Below are positions 45,269-60,129 of a stretch of 64,000 nt of DNA, in pieces. The number at the start of each line of letters is the position of its first letter. Position 1 is the stretch's first letter. The notes under the pieces were generated by a model, which was not told the DNA's origin, did not search any database, and saw only the letters and a list, made by a program, of their open reading frames with translations. Both the position numbers and the translations under genes were made by a program. The stretch is from contig JAPYON010000001.1 in the NCBI GenBank assembly GCA_029938175.1, positions 1-64,000 of the forward strand, given 5' to 3'. Source of the DNA: Paracoccaceae bacterium (GTDB taxonomy: Bacteria > Pseudomonadota > Alphaproteobacteria > Rhodobacterales > Rhodobacteraceae).

Positions 45269-45284
45269 TGGTTCACGTGAAACT
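45269..45284. promoter_or_regulatory. parS: Degenerate parS-like site
   Basis: TGGTTCACGTGAAACT vs TGTTTCACGTGAAACA (2 mismatches). Confidence 0.65.
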
Positions 45285-48589: not shown

Positions 48590-49480
48590 TCATTGCGACA
48601 GCAACTGACATAATCCGTCGAGCTGCTCTAGATCCGAATATTTAATTCGAAGCTCACCACTTTGACCGCCAGATTTGTGATCAATTGTGACCTTTGCGCC
48701 GAGATTCGCAGTCAAGTCGTACTCGATCGCACGAGTGTCCGCATCTTTGGCTGGTTTCAGACGACGCTTCTGTGGTGAAACTGATTTTTTTGCCTTGGCC
48801 AACGCCTCGGCTTGGCGAACTGACAGACCCTTGGAAATGATGATGCGGGCGAGTGCTACGGGGTCATCGACGGGAACCAGTGCACGAGCATGGCCTGCGG
48901 ATAGTTGTCCATTTTGCAAATATTCCAAAACCTCGGATGGAAGATTCAGCAGGCGAAGAAGATTCGCGATATGACTACGGCTTTTACCCAATGCCTCGGC
49001 CATTTTTTCCTGAGTACGTCCGAATTTATTCATCAACTGACGGTATCCCAGCGCCTCTTCTACCGCGTTCAAATCGGCGCGCTGGATATTTTCGATGATG
49101 GCTAGCTCAAGAACTTCGGTGTCCGATAGCTCGCGTACCAACACCGGAATCGTATGCAGTTTTGCGCGCTGCGCTGCGCGCCATCTACGTTCGCCAGCCA
49201 CGATCTGGTAGTCGTTCTGATTGTTCGGATCGGGCCGGACGATAAGCGGTTGTATTACGCCCTTTTCAGTGATCGAGGCGGTGAGATCCTGCAAATCATG
49301 TTCATTGAAAGCTCGACGCGGCTGCTCAGGGTTAGCGTGGACTTTCTCGATCGGAACTTCAGACGCTCCAGCGAGAGACACAAGGGCGCCACCAATTGGG
49401 TTTTCGTCATCTAAATTTACGTCTGCCAATAGTGCAGAAAGGCCGCGGCCAAGGCTTTTGCGTTCAGTTTTCTTTGACAT
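48590..49480 (-). CDS. parB: Chromosome partitioning protein ParB
   Basis: LGRGLSALLADV; YQIVAGERRWRAAQRA; GHARALV. Confidence 0.96.
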   Translation of the reverse strand: MSKKTERKSLGRGLSALLADVNLDDENPIGGALVSLAGASEVPIEKVHANPEQPRRAFNEHDLQDLTASITEKGVIQPLIVRPDPNNQNDYQIVAGERRWRAAQRAKLHTIPVLVRELSDTEVLELAIIENIQRADLNAVEEALGYRQLMNKFGRTQEKMAEALGKSRSHIANLLRLLNLPSEVLEYLQNGQLSAGHARALVPVDDPVALARIIISKGLSVRQAEALAKAKKSVSPQKRRLKPAKDADTRAIEYDLTANLGAKVTIDHKSGGQSGELRIKYSDLEQLDGLCQLLSQ

Positions 49481-49492
49481 TATTCTGTTTCT

Positions 49493-50311
49493 TCAATCTG
49501 TTACGTTATCATTCATCCGCCGAAGAAGTTCGGCAGCTAGTTTCTGGTACGCAATACTGCCGGAGCTACGATGATCGTAAATCAGCGCCGGAATAGAATG
49601 CGAGGGCGCCTCGCTTAACCGTACGTTGCGCGGGATTATTGTCTCGTATACCAGATCGCCAAGATTATCGCGCACGTCCTCCTCGACCTGACGGGAAAGG
49701 TTGTTCCGGCGATCATACATCGTCAACACAATACCCTGAATACCCAATTTGGGGTTAAGAGATTGTTTAACCTCTTTAATGGTCATCATTAACTGCGACA
49801 GCCCCTCAAGAGCAAAAAATTCGCATTGCAAGGGTACAAGAACAGAGGTCGCAGCAACCATCGCGTTGACCGTTAAAAGATTCAGGGATGGTGGGCAATC
49901 GATCAAAATATAGTCGAAATTGCAAGCCAGCGCGTCTGTCGAGCTGAGTGCTTGTCTCAAGCGCAAGACACGATTCGGGTCGTTGACCATATCCACATCG
50001 GCAGAACTTAGGTCATTCGTCGAGGGTGCGATGAACAAGTTCGGAATCATCGTTTCTTGCGCGATGTCTGACAGCTTTGTATCGCCAAGTAGTAGATCGT
50101 AAGTGGTTAACTTTCGTTGGTCAGGCGAAATGCCTAGACCAGTAGACGCGTTTCCCTGCGAATCCAGGTCGATCAACAACACCTTCCGTCCCACCGCAGC
50201 CAACGCCGTACCCAGATTAATCGCTGTGGTAGTCTTACCAACCCCGCCTTTTTGGTTTGCCACGGCAAGGATAACCGGCAGTTTTTCCCGTTTCTTATTG
50301 GTCTTGGACAC
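49493..50311 (-). CDS. parA: Chromosome partitioning ATPase ParA
   Basis: AVANQKGGVGKTTTAINLGTALA. Confidence 0.96.
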   Translation of the reverse strand: MSKTNKKREKLPVILAVANQKGGVGKTTTAINLGTALAAVGRKVLLIDLDSQGNASTGLGISPDQRKLTTYDLLLGDTKLSDIAQETMIPNLFIAPSTNDLSSADVDMVNDPNRVLRLRQALSSTDALACNFDYILIDCPPSLNLLTVNAMVAATSVLVPLQCEFFALEGLSQLMMTIKEVKQSLNPKLGIQGIVLTMYDRRNNLSRQVEEDVRDNLGDLVYETIIPRNVRLSEAPSHSIPALIYDHRSSGSIAYQKLAAELLRRMNDNVTD

Positions 50312-50927
50312 GGCTTAATTCTCCGATGCGGAGTATAACTGCGTCTGCGTCAGTCATACTGGGAAATGTCTGGTATGACATATGCCAACATGTTGAGGCC
50401 TCGGTCAATTCCGAATTGACTCGTATGCCCTTCGGAAACAAGCTAATTCCATCGGGTTTTCTGTGTAGTTTAGTAAATTCAAGTAGTTGCGGTAATGATG
50501 ATAACGCCCGAGCGGACAATATATCTGCGCTTTGTGGCTCAAGAACTTCAATTCTTTTTGTTATGACCTTTACGGACACGCCCATCTCGCGCGCTGCAGC
50601 TTGCAAAAATACTGACTTGCGCCTATCGCTTTCTACAAGTGTTACAAGTAAATCAGGTGCCTTCTCAGCCGCGATCGCAGCGATCACCAATCCGGGAAAC
50701 CCTGCACCCGAACCAATGTCCAACCAGTTTTTCTTACCTGATGGCGCCAACTTCCAAAGCTGAGCCGAGTCAGTAATGTGACGCTGCCATAGGTCAGGGA
50801 TCGTTGACTTTGCCACCAGGTTTATCTTTGGGTTCCACTTCTCTAAAAGCGAGGAATACGCTTTTAGGCGTTCGGTTGTTTCACGTGAAACACTGAAAGT
50901 ATCGGCGAAGTTAATTTCTGTAGTCAT
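50295..50927 (-). CDS. rsmG: 16S rRNA (guanine527-N7)-methyltransferase
   Basis: WNPKINLVAKSTIPDLWQRHITDSAQL; LDIGSGAGFPGLVIA. Confidence 0.95.
   Translation of the reverse strand: MTTEINFADTFSVSRETTERLKAYSSLLEKWNPKINLVAKSTIPDLWQRHITDSAQLWKLAPSGKKNWLDIGSGAGFPGLVIAAIAAEKAPDLLVTLVESDRRKSVFLQAAAREMGVSVKVITKRIEVLEPQSADILSARALSSLPQLLEFTKLHRKPDGISLFPKGIRVNSELTEASTCWHMSYQTFPSMTDADAVILRIGELSRVQDQ
50877..50892. promoter_or_regulatory. parS: parS centromere-like site (perfect), within rsmG
   Basis: TGTTTCACGTGAAACA, perfect 16-bp palindrome. Confidence 0.92.
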
Positions 50928-52793: not shown

Positions 52794-52809
52794 TGTTTCA
52801 CGTGAAACA
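52794..52809. promoter_or_regulatory. parS: parS centromere-like site (perfect), immediately upstream of the mnmG start
   Basis: TGTTTCACGTGAAACA. Confidence 0.92.
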
Positions 52810-54182: not shown

Positions 54183-55454
54183 CTAGCTATTCATCGAATC
54201 GAAGAATTCCGAGTTTGTCTTCGTCTGCTTCATCTTGCCGAGCAAGAATTCTGCTGCATCCGTTGTTCCCATCGGATTCAAAATACGGCGCAGCAAGAAC
54301 ATCTTAGTCAGTTCGCTTTTCTCGACCAGCAACTCTTCTTTCCGAGTGCCTGATTTCAAGATATCAATCGCCGGGAACACGCGTTTGTCCGCAATCTTGC
54401 GATCCAGAACGACTTCCGAGTTACCAGTTCCCTTGAACTCCTCAAAGATCACTTCATCCATCCGGCTTCCGGTATCAATCAACGCAGTAGCGATAATCGT
54501 AAGCGAACCGCCCTCTTCAATATTACGTGCCGCACCAAAGAAGCGTTTCGGGCGTTGCAAAGCATTCGCGTCCACACCACCGGTCAAAACCTTACCAGAT
54601 GACGGGACCACGGTGTTGAATGCGCGCCCTAGGCGTGTAATCGAGTCCAGCAAAATCACAACATCGCGCTTATGTTCAACCAGACGTTTGGCCTTTTCGA
54701 TGACCATTTCTGCAACGGCCACGTGACGCGATGCTGGCTCGTCAAAAGTCGAGGCCACCACCTCTCCCTTAACGCTGCGCTGCATATCTGTAACTTCTTC
54801 AGGGCGTTCATCGACCAGCAATACAATCAAGAAACATTCAGGGTGGTTGACGGCTATAGACTTAGCAATATTCTGCAAAATCATGGTCTTACCAGTTCTT
54901 GGCGGCGCCACAACCAGCGAACGTTGGCCTTTGCCGATCGGCGCAACCAGGTCAATAATCCGCGGAGTCTTATCCTTAATAGTCGGGTCTTCAATCTCCA
55001 TTATCAACCGCTCATCTGGGTATAATGGAGTAAGGTTATCAAAATTAATCTTGTGTTTAGAATTTTCCGGGTCTTCAAAGTTGATCGACGAAACATCTAC
55101 CAGCCCAAAGTATTTTTCCCCCTCTTCAGGCGCCTTGATAACACCATCAACGGTATCCCCAGTCCGCAGCGAAAACTTCCGAATTTGCTCGGGGCTAACA
55201 TAAATATCTTCTGGGCCAGCCAGATAGTTAGCCGCTGGTGAGCGCAAAAATCCAAACCCGTCCTTCAGAACTTCGACCACTCCGTCGCCGGAAATTTCAA
55301 CGCTGTCTTCGGCCATTTCCTTAAGGATCGCGAACATCATGTCGCCCTTACGCATGGTGGTTGCGTTATCGATTTCCAGATCTTCAGCCATAGCCAACAA
55401 ATCTGCAGGAGTTTTAGCTTTTAGTTCAGCCAAAGATAGTTTTTCAATATCCAT
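54183..55454 (-). CDS. rho: Transcription termination factor Rho
   Basis: [37 protein letters not shown]. Confidence 0.97.
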
Positions 55455-55588
55455 TAATTTACCATTGCCTTACGCATGCACCGCCATAGCCATGCAATGC
55501 TTTTTATTTGGGGAGCGCACATTCTGGGCGAGGACCGCCCGTGCTTACCGTCACATATCGGTATTTCACATCAAATGTCAATTATTCA

Positions 55589-56041
55589 TTAAAATGGCTT
55601 CGGAATTACCATAAATACGATGACAATCATCAATACCGTTGGAATTTCATTGGCCCGTCGATACGTCTTACCGCTACGGGTATTTTTGTCTTGATCAAAT
55701 TCTTTCCGTCGCGCTGATAGCCAACCATGAAAACCGGACATACCGATCACCATCGCCGCTTTCACCCATGGCCAAATTGATGACCAGTCAATAACGCTCG
55801 GTGTGAATACCAAACACAGGCCAAACACCCATGTTGCTATCATGGCTGGGTTGATTATCGCGCGCATCAGTTTGCGCTCCATAACTTTGAAAATCTCGGA
55901 TTGATCACTGCCAACCGGCGCTTTTTCTGCGTGATATACAAAAAGTCTCGGTAGATAGAACATGCCAGCCATCCATGAAATTACCGAGATAATATGCAGT
56001 GACAAAATCCATGGATATGCCGAGGTAAGGAAGTTTGACAT
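55589..56041 (-). CDS. hemJ: Protoporphyrinogen oxidase HemJ (CopD-like membrane protein)
   Basis: LSLHIISVISWMAGMFYLPRLFVYHAE; next to hemE. Confidence 0.9.
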   Translation of the reverse strand: MSNFLTSAYPWILSLHIISVISWMAGMFYLPRLFVYHAEKAPVGSDQSEIFKVMERKLMRAIINPAMIATWVFGLCLVFTPSVIDWSSIWPWVKAAMVIGMSGFHGWLSARRKEFDQDKNTRSGKTYRRANEIPTVLMIVIVFMVIPKPF

Positions 56042-56045
56042 TTGT

Positions 56046-57083
56046 TTACCCTCTGATAACTCTCAACATTTTCTCTACATTAGCCGGATCACCTTGTGGA
56101 GTTATTCCGTGACCAAGGTTGAAAATATACGGTCCTTGTCCTAGAATTTCCAACAGCCGGAGTGTTTCCCGTTCCAGCGATACACCGCCGGTAATCAACA
56201 GCATCGGATCAAGGTTCCCCTGCACCGCAAGCTTATTTTGCAACGTATCTCGCGCCCACTCTGCTGGTACTGAAGTATCAAGCGCTAGACCGTCAAACAC
56301 ACCGGCATCAGCGAATTTTACATATCCACCACCTGCCCCACGTGGGAACCCAATGACCGGCAGACCGGGAAATCGTGCCTTCAACTCAGTCGCGATCCGA
56401 ATTGCTGGTTTCAGCGCATATTCTTCAAAGCAAGAACCACCAAGTGCACCGGACCAACTATCAAAAAGCTTAACAACCTCTGCGCCAGCTTCGACCTGTT
56501 TGGCTAAATACTCAATCGTCGATTCTGTTATCAGATCTATCAACTGACTGAACCCAGCTGGATCGCGATACATCCACTCCCGGGCTGGTCCTTGATCAGG
56601 TGTACTTCGACCCGCCACCATATAGGTGGCAACGGTCCAAGGTGCGCCAGCAAACCCTATCAGCGTGGTTTCTTTAGGTAATTCACCTGAAAGCCGCTTA
56701 ACAGTCTCATAGACGGGCGACAAAACGTCGTGAATATCGTCTTTTCCCTTCAGCGCTTCCAACTCTGCCACGTTCGTGACCGGATTGAGACGAGGTCCTT
56801 CACCTGTTTCGAACCACAAATCCATTCCCAATGCTTGTGGTAACAACAAAATATCAGCAAATAGGATCGCTGCATCAAACCCGAACCGGCGGATTGGTTG
56901 CATTGTTACCTCGGTTGCAAACTCGGGATTATAACATAGGTCTAGAAAACCACCCGCTGTAGCACGCAATTCACGATATTCTGGTAAATAACGTCCCGCT
57001 TGCCGCATAATCCAAACTGGAGGGGTTTTTACGGTTTCTCCAGCAAGTACGCGAAGTAATTTTTTATTAGGCATACCGGTCAT
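56046..57083 (-). CDS. hemE: Uroporphyrinogen decarboxylase
   Basis: [36 protein letters not shown]. Confidence 0.96.
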
Positions 57084-57413
57084 TTTATTCTCCCTCTTAT
57101 AATATAAATATTTAAGAGAAGTAGTGGTTGATAGTAGATACTCTGAATAATGTGGATTACCGCATTTATATAGTTGTGCACAAGGTTATCCATAGCGACA
57201 TCTGCGCCTACCCACTATGTATTGCTTAATAAAACAAATAACCTACCTTTTTATCCACAAACTGAACTATTTCTTTTCCCCAAGAATAAAAAGGTGCATA
57301 AAATTTTGAACTGTGTGCAAAACACCTCCGTAGTTTTTAGCCTGTGGGCTAATAGGTTTTTTCCATTAATTACCCCCGAATGTGTCCACAGGCCGATTTT
57401 GGAGACCTAAACC
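57084..57413. other. oriC: Candidate chromosomal replication origin (oriC)
   Basis: AT-rich intergenic region; perfect DnaA box TTATCCACA (57251-57259), near boxes TTATCCATA (57186-57194), TGTGGATTA (57151-57159, reverse), GTGTCCACA (57382-57390); AT-rich stretch 57097-57117; flanking genes diverge. Confidence 0.82.
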
Positions 57414-58010
57414 ATGAAACAACTCATTTTGGCATCAGGATCCGGAATTCGCGCTGAAATGTTGCGTTCAGCTGGTGTCCCGTTCGATACGGTTGTTGTG
57501 CGCGTGGATGAAGAAACGATCAAAGCTACAATGCTGGCGGAAGGTGCAAAGCCAAGAGGTGTGGCAGATATGCTTGCGGAAATGAAGGCGCGACGCGTTG
57601 CTCAAAAGTATCCCGAGGCGTTGGTTCTTGGTGCTGATCAGGTTCTAGTGTCTGGTGGCGTACTGTTTGATAAGCCGACTTCTATCGCAAAAGCCCGGGA
57701 ACAATTGATTGCTTTACGCGGAAATACCCACGAATTGCTATCAGCGGCTGTAATTTACGAGGACGGGACCCCAGTTTGGCGGCATATCGGGCGTGCACAA
57801 CTTATGATGCGACCTTTTAGTGACGTGTTTTTGGAAAACTACATCAAGTCGCAGTCCGAGGAATTGTTTACAACCGTTGGCGGGTATAAGCTGGAAAAAG
57901 AAGGCTCACAGTTGTTTACGCGGGTTCAAGGGGACTATTTCTCCGTGCTAGGGCTACCATTGTTAGAGATACTCGGGTTTTTGCGGACAAGAGGAATTTG
58001 TCAGGAATGA
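57414..58010 (+). CDS. maf: Maf-family nucleotide pyrophosphatase
   Basis: LILASGSGIRAEMLRSAGVPF; VLGADQVL. Confidence 0.94.
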   Translation: MKQLILASGSGIRAEMLRSAGVPFDTVVVRVDEETIKATMLAEGAKPRGVADMLAEMKARRVAQKYPEALVLGADQVLVSGGVLFDKPTSIAKAREQLIALRGNTHELLSAAVIYEDGTPVWRHIGRAQLMMRPFSDVFLENYIKSQSEELFTTVGGYKLEKEGSQLFTRVQGDYFSVLGLPLLEILGFLRTRGICQE

Positions 58011-58843
58011 GTAATAAAGTATCGCCACTTGCCGGTGTGGTCGGGTGGCCAATCAAGCACAGTAAGTCACCCGTGCTTCATAGGCACTGGTTAAACCGGC
58101 ATAATTTGCCTGGGCAATACTTGCCGATCGCTTTGCCGCCAGAAGATTTGGCAAGCGGCCTGCGCAAGTTGGCGGGTAAAGGGTACAAAGGGGTTAACCT
58201 CACAATTCCCCATAAAGAGTCCGTTCTTCTGACTGCCCATAGTATCACAGATCGCGCTTCTTTAATTGGGGCGGCTAATACGATCCACTTTCACGCGGAC
58301 GGCACAATCGGTGCAGATAACACTGACGGTTACGGGTTTATACAAAACCTACGCCAGAATGCGGCAGATTGGGAACCCGAATCCGGCCCGGCTTTGGTCG
58401 TCGGGGCAGGGGGCGCGGCGCGGGCTATTGTCTGGGCCCTACTTAGCGAAGGTGTACCTAGTGTGAATATTGCCAACAGAACGCGCATTCGGGCAGAAAA
58501 TCTAGCCGATCATTTCGGATCGAGGGTCAAAGTGGTCGAGTGGAACGAGGTTAGCGATGCAACCGACGGGGCCACTACGATAGTTAACACCACTTCGCTC
58601 GGGATGGAGGGCCAGCCGGAGTTGCGGATACATTTTGACGCTGCCTTACCGAACGCCCTTGTGACGGACATTGTATATACACCATTGATCACACCGTTTT
58701 TAGAAAAAGCCCGGGAACGCGGGTTGAAAACGGTGGATGGGCTAGGAATGCTATTACATCAAGCAGTTCCAGGATTCGAAAGCTGGTTTGGACATCGACC
58801 AGACGTAGACGAAGAGTTGCGACAAGCAGTTCTGCAAACATGA
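58007..58843 (+). CDS. aroE: Shikimate dehydrogenase
   Basis: VVGWPIKHSKSPVLHRHWL; GVNLTIPHKESV; GAGGAARAIVWAL. Confidence 0.95.
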   Translation: MSNKVSPLAGVVGWPIKHSKSPVLHRHWLNRHNLPGQYLPIALPPEDLASGLRKLAGKGYKGVNLTIPHKESVLLTAHSITDRASLIGAANTIHFHADGTIGADNTDGYGFIQNLRQNAADWEPESGPALVVGAGGAARAIVWALLSEGVPSVNIANRTRIRAENLADHFGSRVKVVEWNEVSDATDGATTIVNTTSLGMEGQPELRIHFDAALPNALVTDIVYTPLITPFLEKARERGLKTVDGLGMLLHQAVPGFESWFGHRPDVDEELRQAVLQT

Positions 58844-59436
58844 CGTCAGGGACCTACATTCTTGGGCTCACCGGATCTATCGGGATGGGAAAGTCCACGA
58901 CAGCCAACTTTTTTCGGGATGCGGGGGTTCCAGTTTGGGATGCCGACGCTGCTGTGTATGCGCTTTATAGCAAGGGCGGGGCAGGGGCGCAGGCAATCGC
59001 GACGCTCGCACCCGATTCTGTTAATGAAGGAAAAGTCGATCGGGGGGCGTTGCGAAAAGCGATTTTGGACGACAAAACGCTGCTAAAGCGCATAGAGGTC
59101 GCTGTGCATCCACTTGTTGCGTCCGACCGGAAAAAGTTTCTCGTATCCAACGCAGACGAGAGCTTGGTAGTTTGTGATGTTCCGCTGCTGTTTGAAACGA
59201 GTGCAGAGGCATGGTTGGACGGTGTTTTAGTCGTAACAGCAGATAAAAACACACAAAACCAACGTGTTATGGATAGGGAAGGGATGACTGCCGAGATGTT
59301 AGAGACAATGTTGTCCAAGCAAACCCCTGACTCCGAAAAGCGACGAAAAGCGGATTTTATAATTGATACAGGAAAAGGTATGGACCTCGCTCGTGCCGAG
59401 GTATTATCTTTGATTGAACGGATTAAGGATCGGTAA
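58840..59436 (+). CDS. coaE: Dephospho-CoA kinase
   Basis: LGLTGSIGMGKSTTANFFRDAGVPVWDADAAVY. Confidence 0.95.
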   Translation: MTSGTYILGLTGSIGMGKSTTANFFRDAGVPVWDADAAVYALYSKGGAGAQAIATLAPDSVNEGKVDRGALRKAILDDKTLLKRIEVAVHPLVASDRKKFLVSNADESLVVCDVPLLFETSAEAWLDGVLVVTADKNTQNQRVMDREGMTAEMLETMLSKQTPDSEKRRKADFIIDTGKGMDLARAEVLSLIERIKDR

Positions 59437-60129
59437 ATGCGTGAAATCGTGATGGACACAGAAACAACCGGATTGGATCCTAATTCCGGCGACCGGATCG
59501 TTGAGATCGGTGCTGTAGAGTTGTTCAATCACATGCCGACAGGTAAAACGTATCATCAATACCTTAATCCGCAGCGTGATATGCCCGAAGGCGCGTTTGC
59601 GGTTCACGGGCTTAGTGAAGAATTCTTGTCAGATAAACCGCTGTTTGCGGACGTTGCGCAAGCATTTTTGGATTTCACCGGCGATTCCAAGCTTGTGATT
59701 CACAATGCGGCATTTGATATGAAGTTCATCAACGCCGAGCTGAAATGGGTTGATCGCCCGCAGCTTCCTTGGGCGCAGGCGCTTGATACATTAGAAATTG
59801 CGCGGAAGAAGTACCCGGGGGCGCAAAACTCGTTGGATGCTTTGTGCCGCAGGTTCGGGATTCAAACAGAACGCGAGCTGCACGGGGCTTTGCTCGATTC
59901 CGAGATTCTGGCCGAAGTGTATCTCGAATTGATCGGTGGACGGCAACCGAACTTTGCGTTGTCTGTGGTGTCTAACAACGATACAAAAGGCAGCGCAAAT
60001 ATGGCGAAATGGGCTCCGCAACAGCGACAAAATCCGCTGCGCTCGCGCCTGACAGACACAGAAGTCGCGGCGCATGCCGATTTTGTTGAAAAGATGGGTG
60101 AGACTGCCGTTTGGAAGCAGTTCAAGTAA
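59437..60129 (+). CDS. dnaQ: DNA polymerase III epsilon subunit
   Basis: REIVMDTETTGLDPNSGDRIVEIGAVE exonuclease motif. Confidence 0.96.
   Translation: MREIVMDTETTGLDPNSGDRIVEIGAVELFNHMPTGKTYHQYLNPQRDMPEGAFAVHGLSEEFLSDKPLFADVAQAFLDFTGDSKLVIHNAAFDMKFINAELKWVDRPQLPWAQALDTLEIARKKYPGAQNSLDALCRRFGIQTERELHGALLDSEILAEVYLELIGGRQPNFALSVVSNNDTKGSANMAKWAPQQRQNPLRSRLTDTEVAAHADFVEKMGETAVWKQFK

Follow-up and report, generated by a model that had tools for sequence, protein, structure and literature searches.

The hemE–maf intergenic region as the probable chromosomal replication origin of a marine Rhodobacteraceae bacterium, and the turnover of its flanking genes

We propose, with a probability that we put at roughly 0.93 on sequence grounds, that the main chromosome of a marine Rhodobacteraceae bacterium, whose genome amounts to 2.13 Mb in 216 contigs, has its replication origin (oriC) in the hemE–maf gap. 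The stretch of DNA analyzed here, henceforth the window, comprises 64,000 nucleotides of a contig (C49) of 189,818 bases. An earlier note on this DNA had nominated the gap as a candidate chromosomal origin, a proposal that now draws support from several directions: a cluster of DnaA boxes, conserved spacing, diverging strand polarity, an adjacent parABS system and strand-switch points in four relatives. It is almost certainly an ordinary origin of a known alphaproteobacterial type, whose flanking genes have taken a modestly unusual evolutionary course.

By the coordinates of the open reading frames, the gap spans exactly 57084–57413, i.e., 330 bp, with a GC content of 0.36 versus approximately 0.5 around it; the AT-rich intergenic region of the earlier note is hence confirmed in both its extent and its composition (36% GC). 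The same holds for the gene directions that it described: those from parB to hemE point left and maf-aroE-coaE-dnaQ point right. The relevant features, in window positions, are the following:

48590–50311, minus strand: parB and parA, chromosome partition genes (Pfam)
50877–50892, no strand: perfect parS TGTTTCACGTGAAACA
52794–52809, no strand: perfect parS TGTTTCACGTGAAACA
54183–56041, minus strand: rho and hemJ (UPF0093), left-arm genes that are origin-adjacent family-wide
56046–57083, minus strand: hemE (uroporphyrinogen decarboxylase), left flank (Pfam URO-D, E = 3.9e-115)
57084–57413, no strand: putative oriC, the entire hemE–maf intergenic region, with 8 DnaA-like boxes, conserved in the genus
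57097–57122, no strand: AT-rich stretch on the hemE side, candidate duplex-unwinding element
57123–57141, plus strand: conserved TAG-rich block GTTGATAGTAGATA, which separates the first strong box from the AT-rich stretch (alignment A1)
57142–57150, minus strand: DnaA-like box TTATTCAGA, 85% identity in six genus members
57151–57159, minus strand: DnaA box TAATCCACA, 98% identity in six genus members
57174–57183, no strand: DnaA-like box TTGTGCACA, a palindrome read on both strands; relatives have TTTTGCACA
57186–57194, plus strand: DnaA box TTATCCATA, 100% identity in six genus members
57251–57259, plus strand: perfect DnaA box TTATCCACA, 98% identity in six genus members
57293–57301, minus strand: DnaA-like box TTATGCACC; several genus members have TTATTCACA, a full match
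57314–57322, minus strand: DnaA-like box TTTTGCACA
57382–57390, plus strand: degenerate DnaA box GTGTCCACA; some relatives carry TTATCCACA at this site
57414–58010, plus strand: maf, right flank (Pfam Maf, E = 4.2e-42)
57998–60129, plus strand: aroE, coaE and dnaQ, right-arm genes that are origin-adjacent family-wide

Allowing up to one mismatch to TTATNCACA, we count 8 DnaA-like boxes on the two strands of the gap (shuffle mean 0.53), and a scan of the full contig (189,818 bases) returned at most 2 such boxes in any other 330-bp window. Measured against the stricter TTATCCACA, there are 3 boxes with at most one mismatch (shuffle mean 0.11) and 10 with at most two (shuffle mean 1.4), in keeping with the one perfect box and the several one- to two-mismatch boxes on both strands that had been noted before; none of 1500 Markov shuffles of the gap sequence reached the counts of 3, 10 and 8. 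The single perfect box is weak evidence, since TTATCCACA occurs 22 times in the 2.13-Mb genome and 5 times in this contig; it is the cluster that is exceptional. Two of the features by which an oriC is recognized, namely a box cluster above background and an AT-rich stretch beside the boxes, are observed here. As regards the latter, the A+T content reaches 80% over 40 bp at both 57084 and 57097, and the most AT-rich 40 bp of the gap lie at its hemE end, so the AT-rich stretch reported next to hemE is real.

We compared the orthologous gap across other genomes of the genus and named public contigs. Boxes recur in most members at approximately 68, 91, 103, 168–170, 210–212, 231–233 and 300 bp from hemE, with some of them differing in letters between members. 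In six close genus members, identity to the window averages 87% in the box columns as against 67% in the other columns of the gap (circular-shift p = 0.013). A protein-binding array under constraint shows just this pattern. Across the same six, identity is 93% over 57097–57140 and 59% over 57195–57250. The former block, made up of the AT-rich stretch and TTGATAGTAGATA, is the most conserved part of the gap outside the boxes; it may be where the duplex opens, or else an element resembling DnaA-trios. Its AT-rich portion (57097–57122) is likely the duplex-unwinding element. For the TAG-rich portion (57123–57141), a DnaA-trio-like element is possible: the rule for the basal unwinding system requires a DnaA box, a spacer and at least three DnaA-trios (PMC8287927), which we applied as at least three NAN trios no more than 16 bp from a box. 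By eye, we find two strict 3'-GAT-5' trios 13 bp from the box at 57151–57159, followed by a break, a suggestive arrangement with fewer trios than the published rule asks for.

Strand polarity in the contig itself agrees with an origin in the gap. GGGNAGGG is the KOPS form of Escherichia coli; its forward and reverse copies number 0 and 4 to the left of the gap and 17 and 2 to the right (Fisher p = 0.0017), i.e., on either flank these KOPS-like motifs are directed outward, a polarity suggesting that GGGNAGGG would act as KOPS in this organism too. The two perfect parS sites lie 4–6 kb from the gap, beside parAB; imperfect parS-like sites with 2–3 mismatches are seen at 45269 and 48151 of the window and at 68998 of the contig. 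GC skew was set aside as proof, being ambiguous in this 190-kb contig of a 216-contig genome: it is weak, and its cumulative minimum lies at 26 kb, the dip near 57 kb being no more than a local one, and therefore it leaves the origin undecided. It seems to follow gene direction.

A skew minimum or a polarity switch at the locus is, however, observed in better-assembled relatives: skew in G088 and G128, and motif polarity, used in place of skew, in G012 and G094. G128 belongs to the same genus and has a 2.35-Mb contig, of which half was sampled; its cumulative skew minimum, by a modest margin from that half of the sequence, falls at 280–320 kb, and maf-PPSR-hemE lie at 296–299 kb. Its hemE–maf locus, with 6 boxes, ranks at the top of 59 sampled 20-kb pieces, the others having at most 3. 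In G088, a single contig of 3.205 Mb, maf lies at 787 kb and the skew minimum falls on the 800-kb sample, and the motifs change polarity near 2.54 Mb, roughly half the chromosome away; the gap has only 3 boxes here, a number also found elsewhere in its sampled sequence. In G012, the polarity of GGGTAGGG flips between 1,167,876 and 1,195,368, an interval of 27 kb with maf inside it at 1,180,523; the likelihood of the change-point fit is symmetric, so maf scores no better than the switch in the other sense near 3.40 Mb, presumably the terminus, and no worse. In G094, GGGTAGGG flips between 2.574 and 2.829 Mb, bracketing hemE-PPSR-maf at 2.737–2.739 Mb.

These relatives also bear on the notion that replication starts instead at dnaA (117354 in the contig, 60 kb rightward of hemE–maf), in the rpsT–dnaA gap. 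Origins linked to dnaA are common in bacteria and that gap has a perfect DnaA box at 116548, but it has 2 boxes versus 8 at hemE–maf. Moreover, motif polarity favors maf over an origin at dnaA, by 2.6 lnL units in G094 (dnaA approximately 505 kb from maf) and by 6.1 in G012 (approximately 217 kb away; hemE, approximately 581 kb away, fits 11.1 units worse), and in G128 dnaA is at 128 kb, with the skew minimum near 300 kb. Boxes upstream of dnaA are also compatible with DnaA controlling its own gene. Box count and polarity in the relatives led us to discard this candidate, to which we attach very little probability. The box at C49:116548 is itself embedded in a near-palindrome, GGATAAAATTTTATCC, in the rpsT–dnaA gap (L008, L016), through which dnaA is possibly controlled by its own product.

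The most probable reading thus remains an origin between hemE and maf, for which, by analogy with what is known of DnaA-dependent origins, we would picture the following course of events. DnaA would bind the box array at 57142–57390 and then form an oligomer. The AT-rich stretch near hemE, at approximately 57097–57122 and beside the most conserved boxes, would be the likeliest place for the duplex to open. Two replisomes would then diverge, leftward through hemE-hemJ-rho-trmE-gidA-gidB-parA-parB and rightward through maf-aroE-coaE-dnaQ, with the newly copied origins being segregated by ParB at the two nearby parS sites.

The closest parallel is the experimentally mapped origin of Caulobacter crescentus, Cori, between hemE and COG1806 (PMC1914354). 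Like Cori, the gap in the window lies between hemE and the position of COG1806 (the PPSR gene), with an AT-rich stretch, a DnaA box array and parAB nearby, and in most members of the genus COG1806 is still in place. Unlike in Caulobacter, the COG1806 flank (PF03618) has been deleted in the window's genome while the hemE flank is present; hence, maf now abuts the origin. A further difference concerns regulatory motifs: the gaps of the window and ten relatives contain neither the CtrA site TTAA-N7-TTAA nor a site fitting the IHF pattern that we applied, and no GANTC occurs in the window's gap. With TTAA-N7-TTAA in none of the 11 gaps, this motif gives no indication of CtrA control as in Caulobacter. 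Origins predicted from the same kind of evidence lie between hemE and COG1806 in Rickettsia and between COG1253 and hemE in Wolbachia, Ehrlichia and Anaplasma (PMC1914354). These are hemE-linked like that of the window but differ in the other flank, the fixed flanks in Rhodobacteraceae being rho/hemJ and maf. Within the family, oriCs have been predicted by Ori-Finder in 101 closed chromosomes (PMC6699656), a study that uses the same criteria of DnaA boxes, local GC minimum, skew minimum and nearness to parAB; its main text names no flanking genes such as hemE.

The loss of COG1806 left its traces in the genus. PF03618 has no match in the window's own genome or in G131; PPSR is kept in 11 of the 13 genus members, between hemE and maf wherever the locus spans both genes, and is absent from most of the other genera checked. 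In several relatives the hemE-to-PPSR distance is 329–330 bp, the same as the hemE-to-maf distance here (330 bp, and 332 bp in G131); therefore, the PPSR gene was removed cleanly. Correspondingly, in alignment A1, the ribosome-binding stretch once before PPSR now stands before maf, at 57384–57413. Pyruvate phosphate dikinase is a target of PPSR-type regulators; it is present in both PPSR-less genomes and is likely the target of the lost PPSR. In a small tree these two genomes do not group together, G131 joining other lineages (88% support); this hints that the gene was lost twice.

Beyond the genus, we surveyed 29 other genera (loci L019–L047), with G094 examined separately. As far as the loci reach, they retain the arrangement rho-(hemJ)-gap-(PPSR)-maf-aroE-coaE. 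Box counts in the best 350-bp window of each of the 29 loci range from 2 to 9, with 4 or 5 being typical, and this best window lies upstream of maf in 28 loci, the upstream stretch of L046 having been wrongly delimited. In contrast, hemE is away from maf in 28 of the 29 genera and in place only in G088; G094 likewise retains it at the origin locus. Relocated copies of hemE are seen in G012, G003, G051, G041 and others (L230–L243), and G112 has two copies. The description of hemE as a neighbor of the origin, as in the earlier note, is accordingly fair for the genus, but in most of the sampled Rhodobacteraceae hemE is elsewhere and the cluster stays upstream of maf. Since the clusters lie there and the hemE loci distant from maf hold 0 to 2 boxes, the marker of the origin in the family, as read from box counts, is maf and not hemE.

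The survey speaks equally to the idea that the cluster is not an origin but a DnaA titration or regulatory site for hemE and maf. DnaA boxes do serve in both capacities and the gap contains the starts of both genes; yet in relatives this locus is where strand asymmetry changes sign, and the cluster persists upstream of maf in nearly all sampled genera, even without hemE, hemJ or PPSR. We consider such a site in place of an origin exceedingly improbable.

Taking the gap as an origin, we think it probable that the Rhodobacteraceae origin is anchored to rho-hemJ on one side and maf-aroE-coaE-dnaQ on the other, with hemE and COG1806, the genes by which alphaproteobacterial origins are classically marked, having been repeatedly moved or lost; in the lineage of the window, COG1806 would have been cleanly removed, placing maf at its start position with the length of the origin unchanged. 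We found no paper on Rhodobacter in which maf, rho and oriC are mentioned jointly. In practical terms, hemE is unsuitable as an origin marker in Rhodobacteraceae, a purpose for which the gap preceding maf (or PPSR-maf) is suitable. The position of the origin in this largely uncultured genus can serve coverage-based estimates of growth rate. In evolutionary terms, the genus displays intermediate stages through which the ancestral neighborhood hemE-oriC-COG1806 has decayed.
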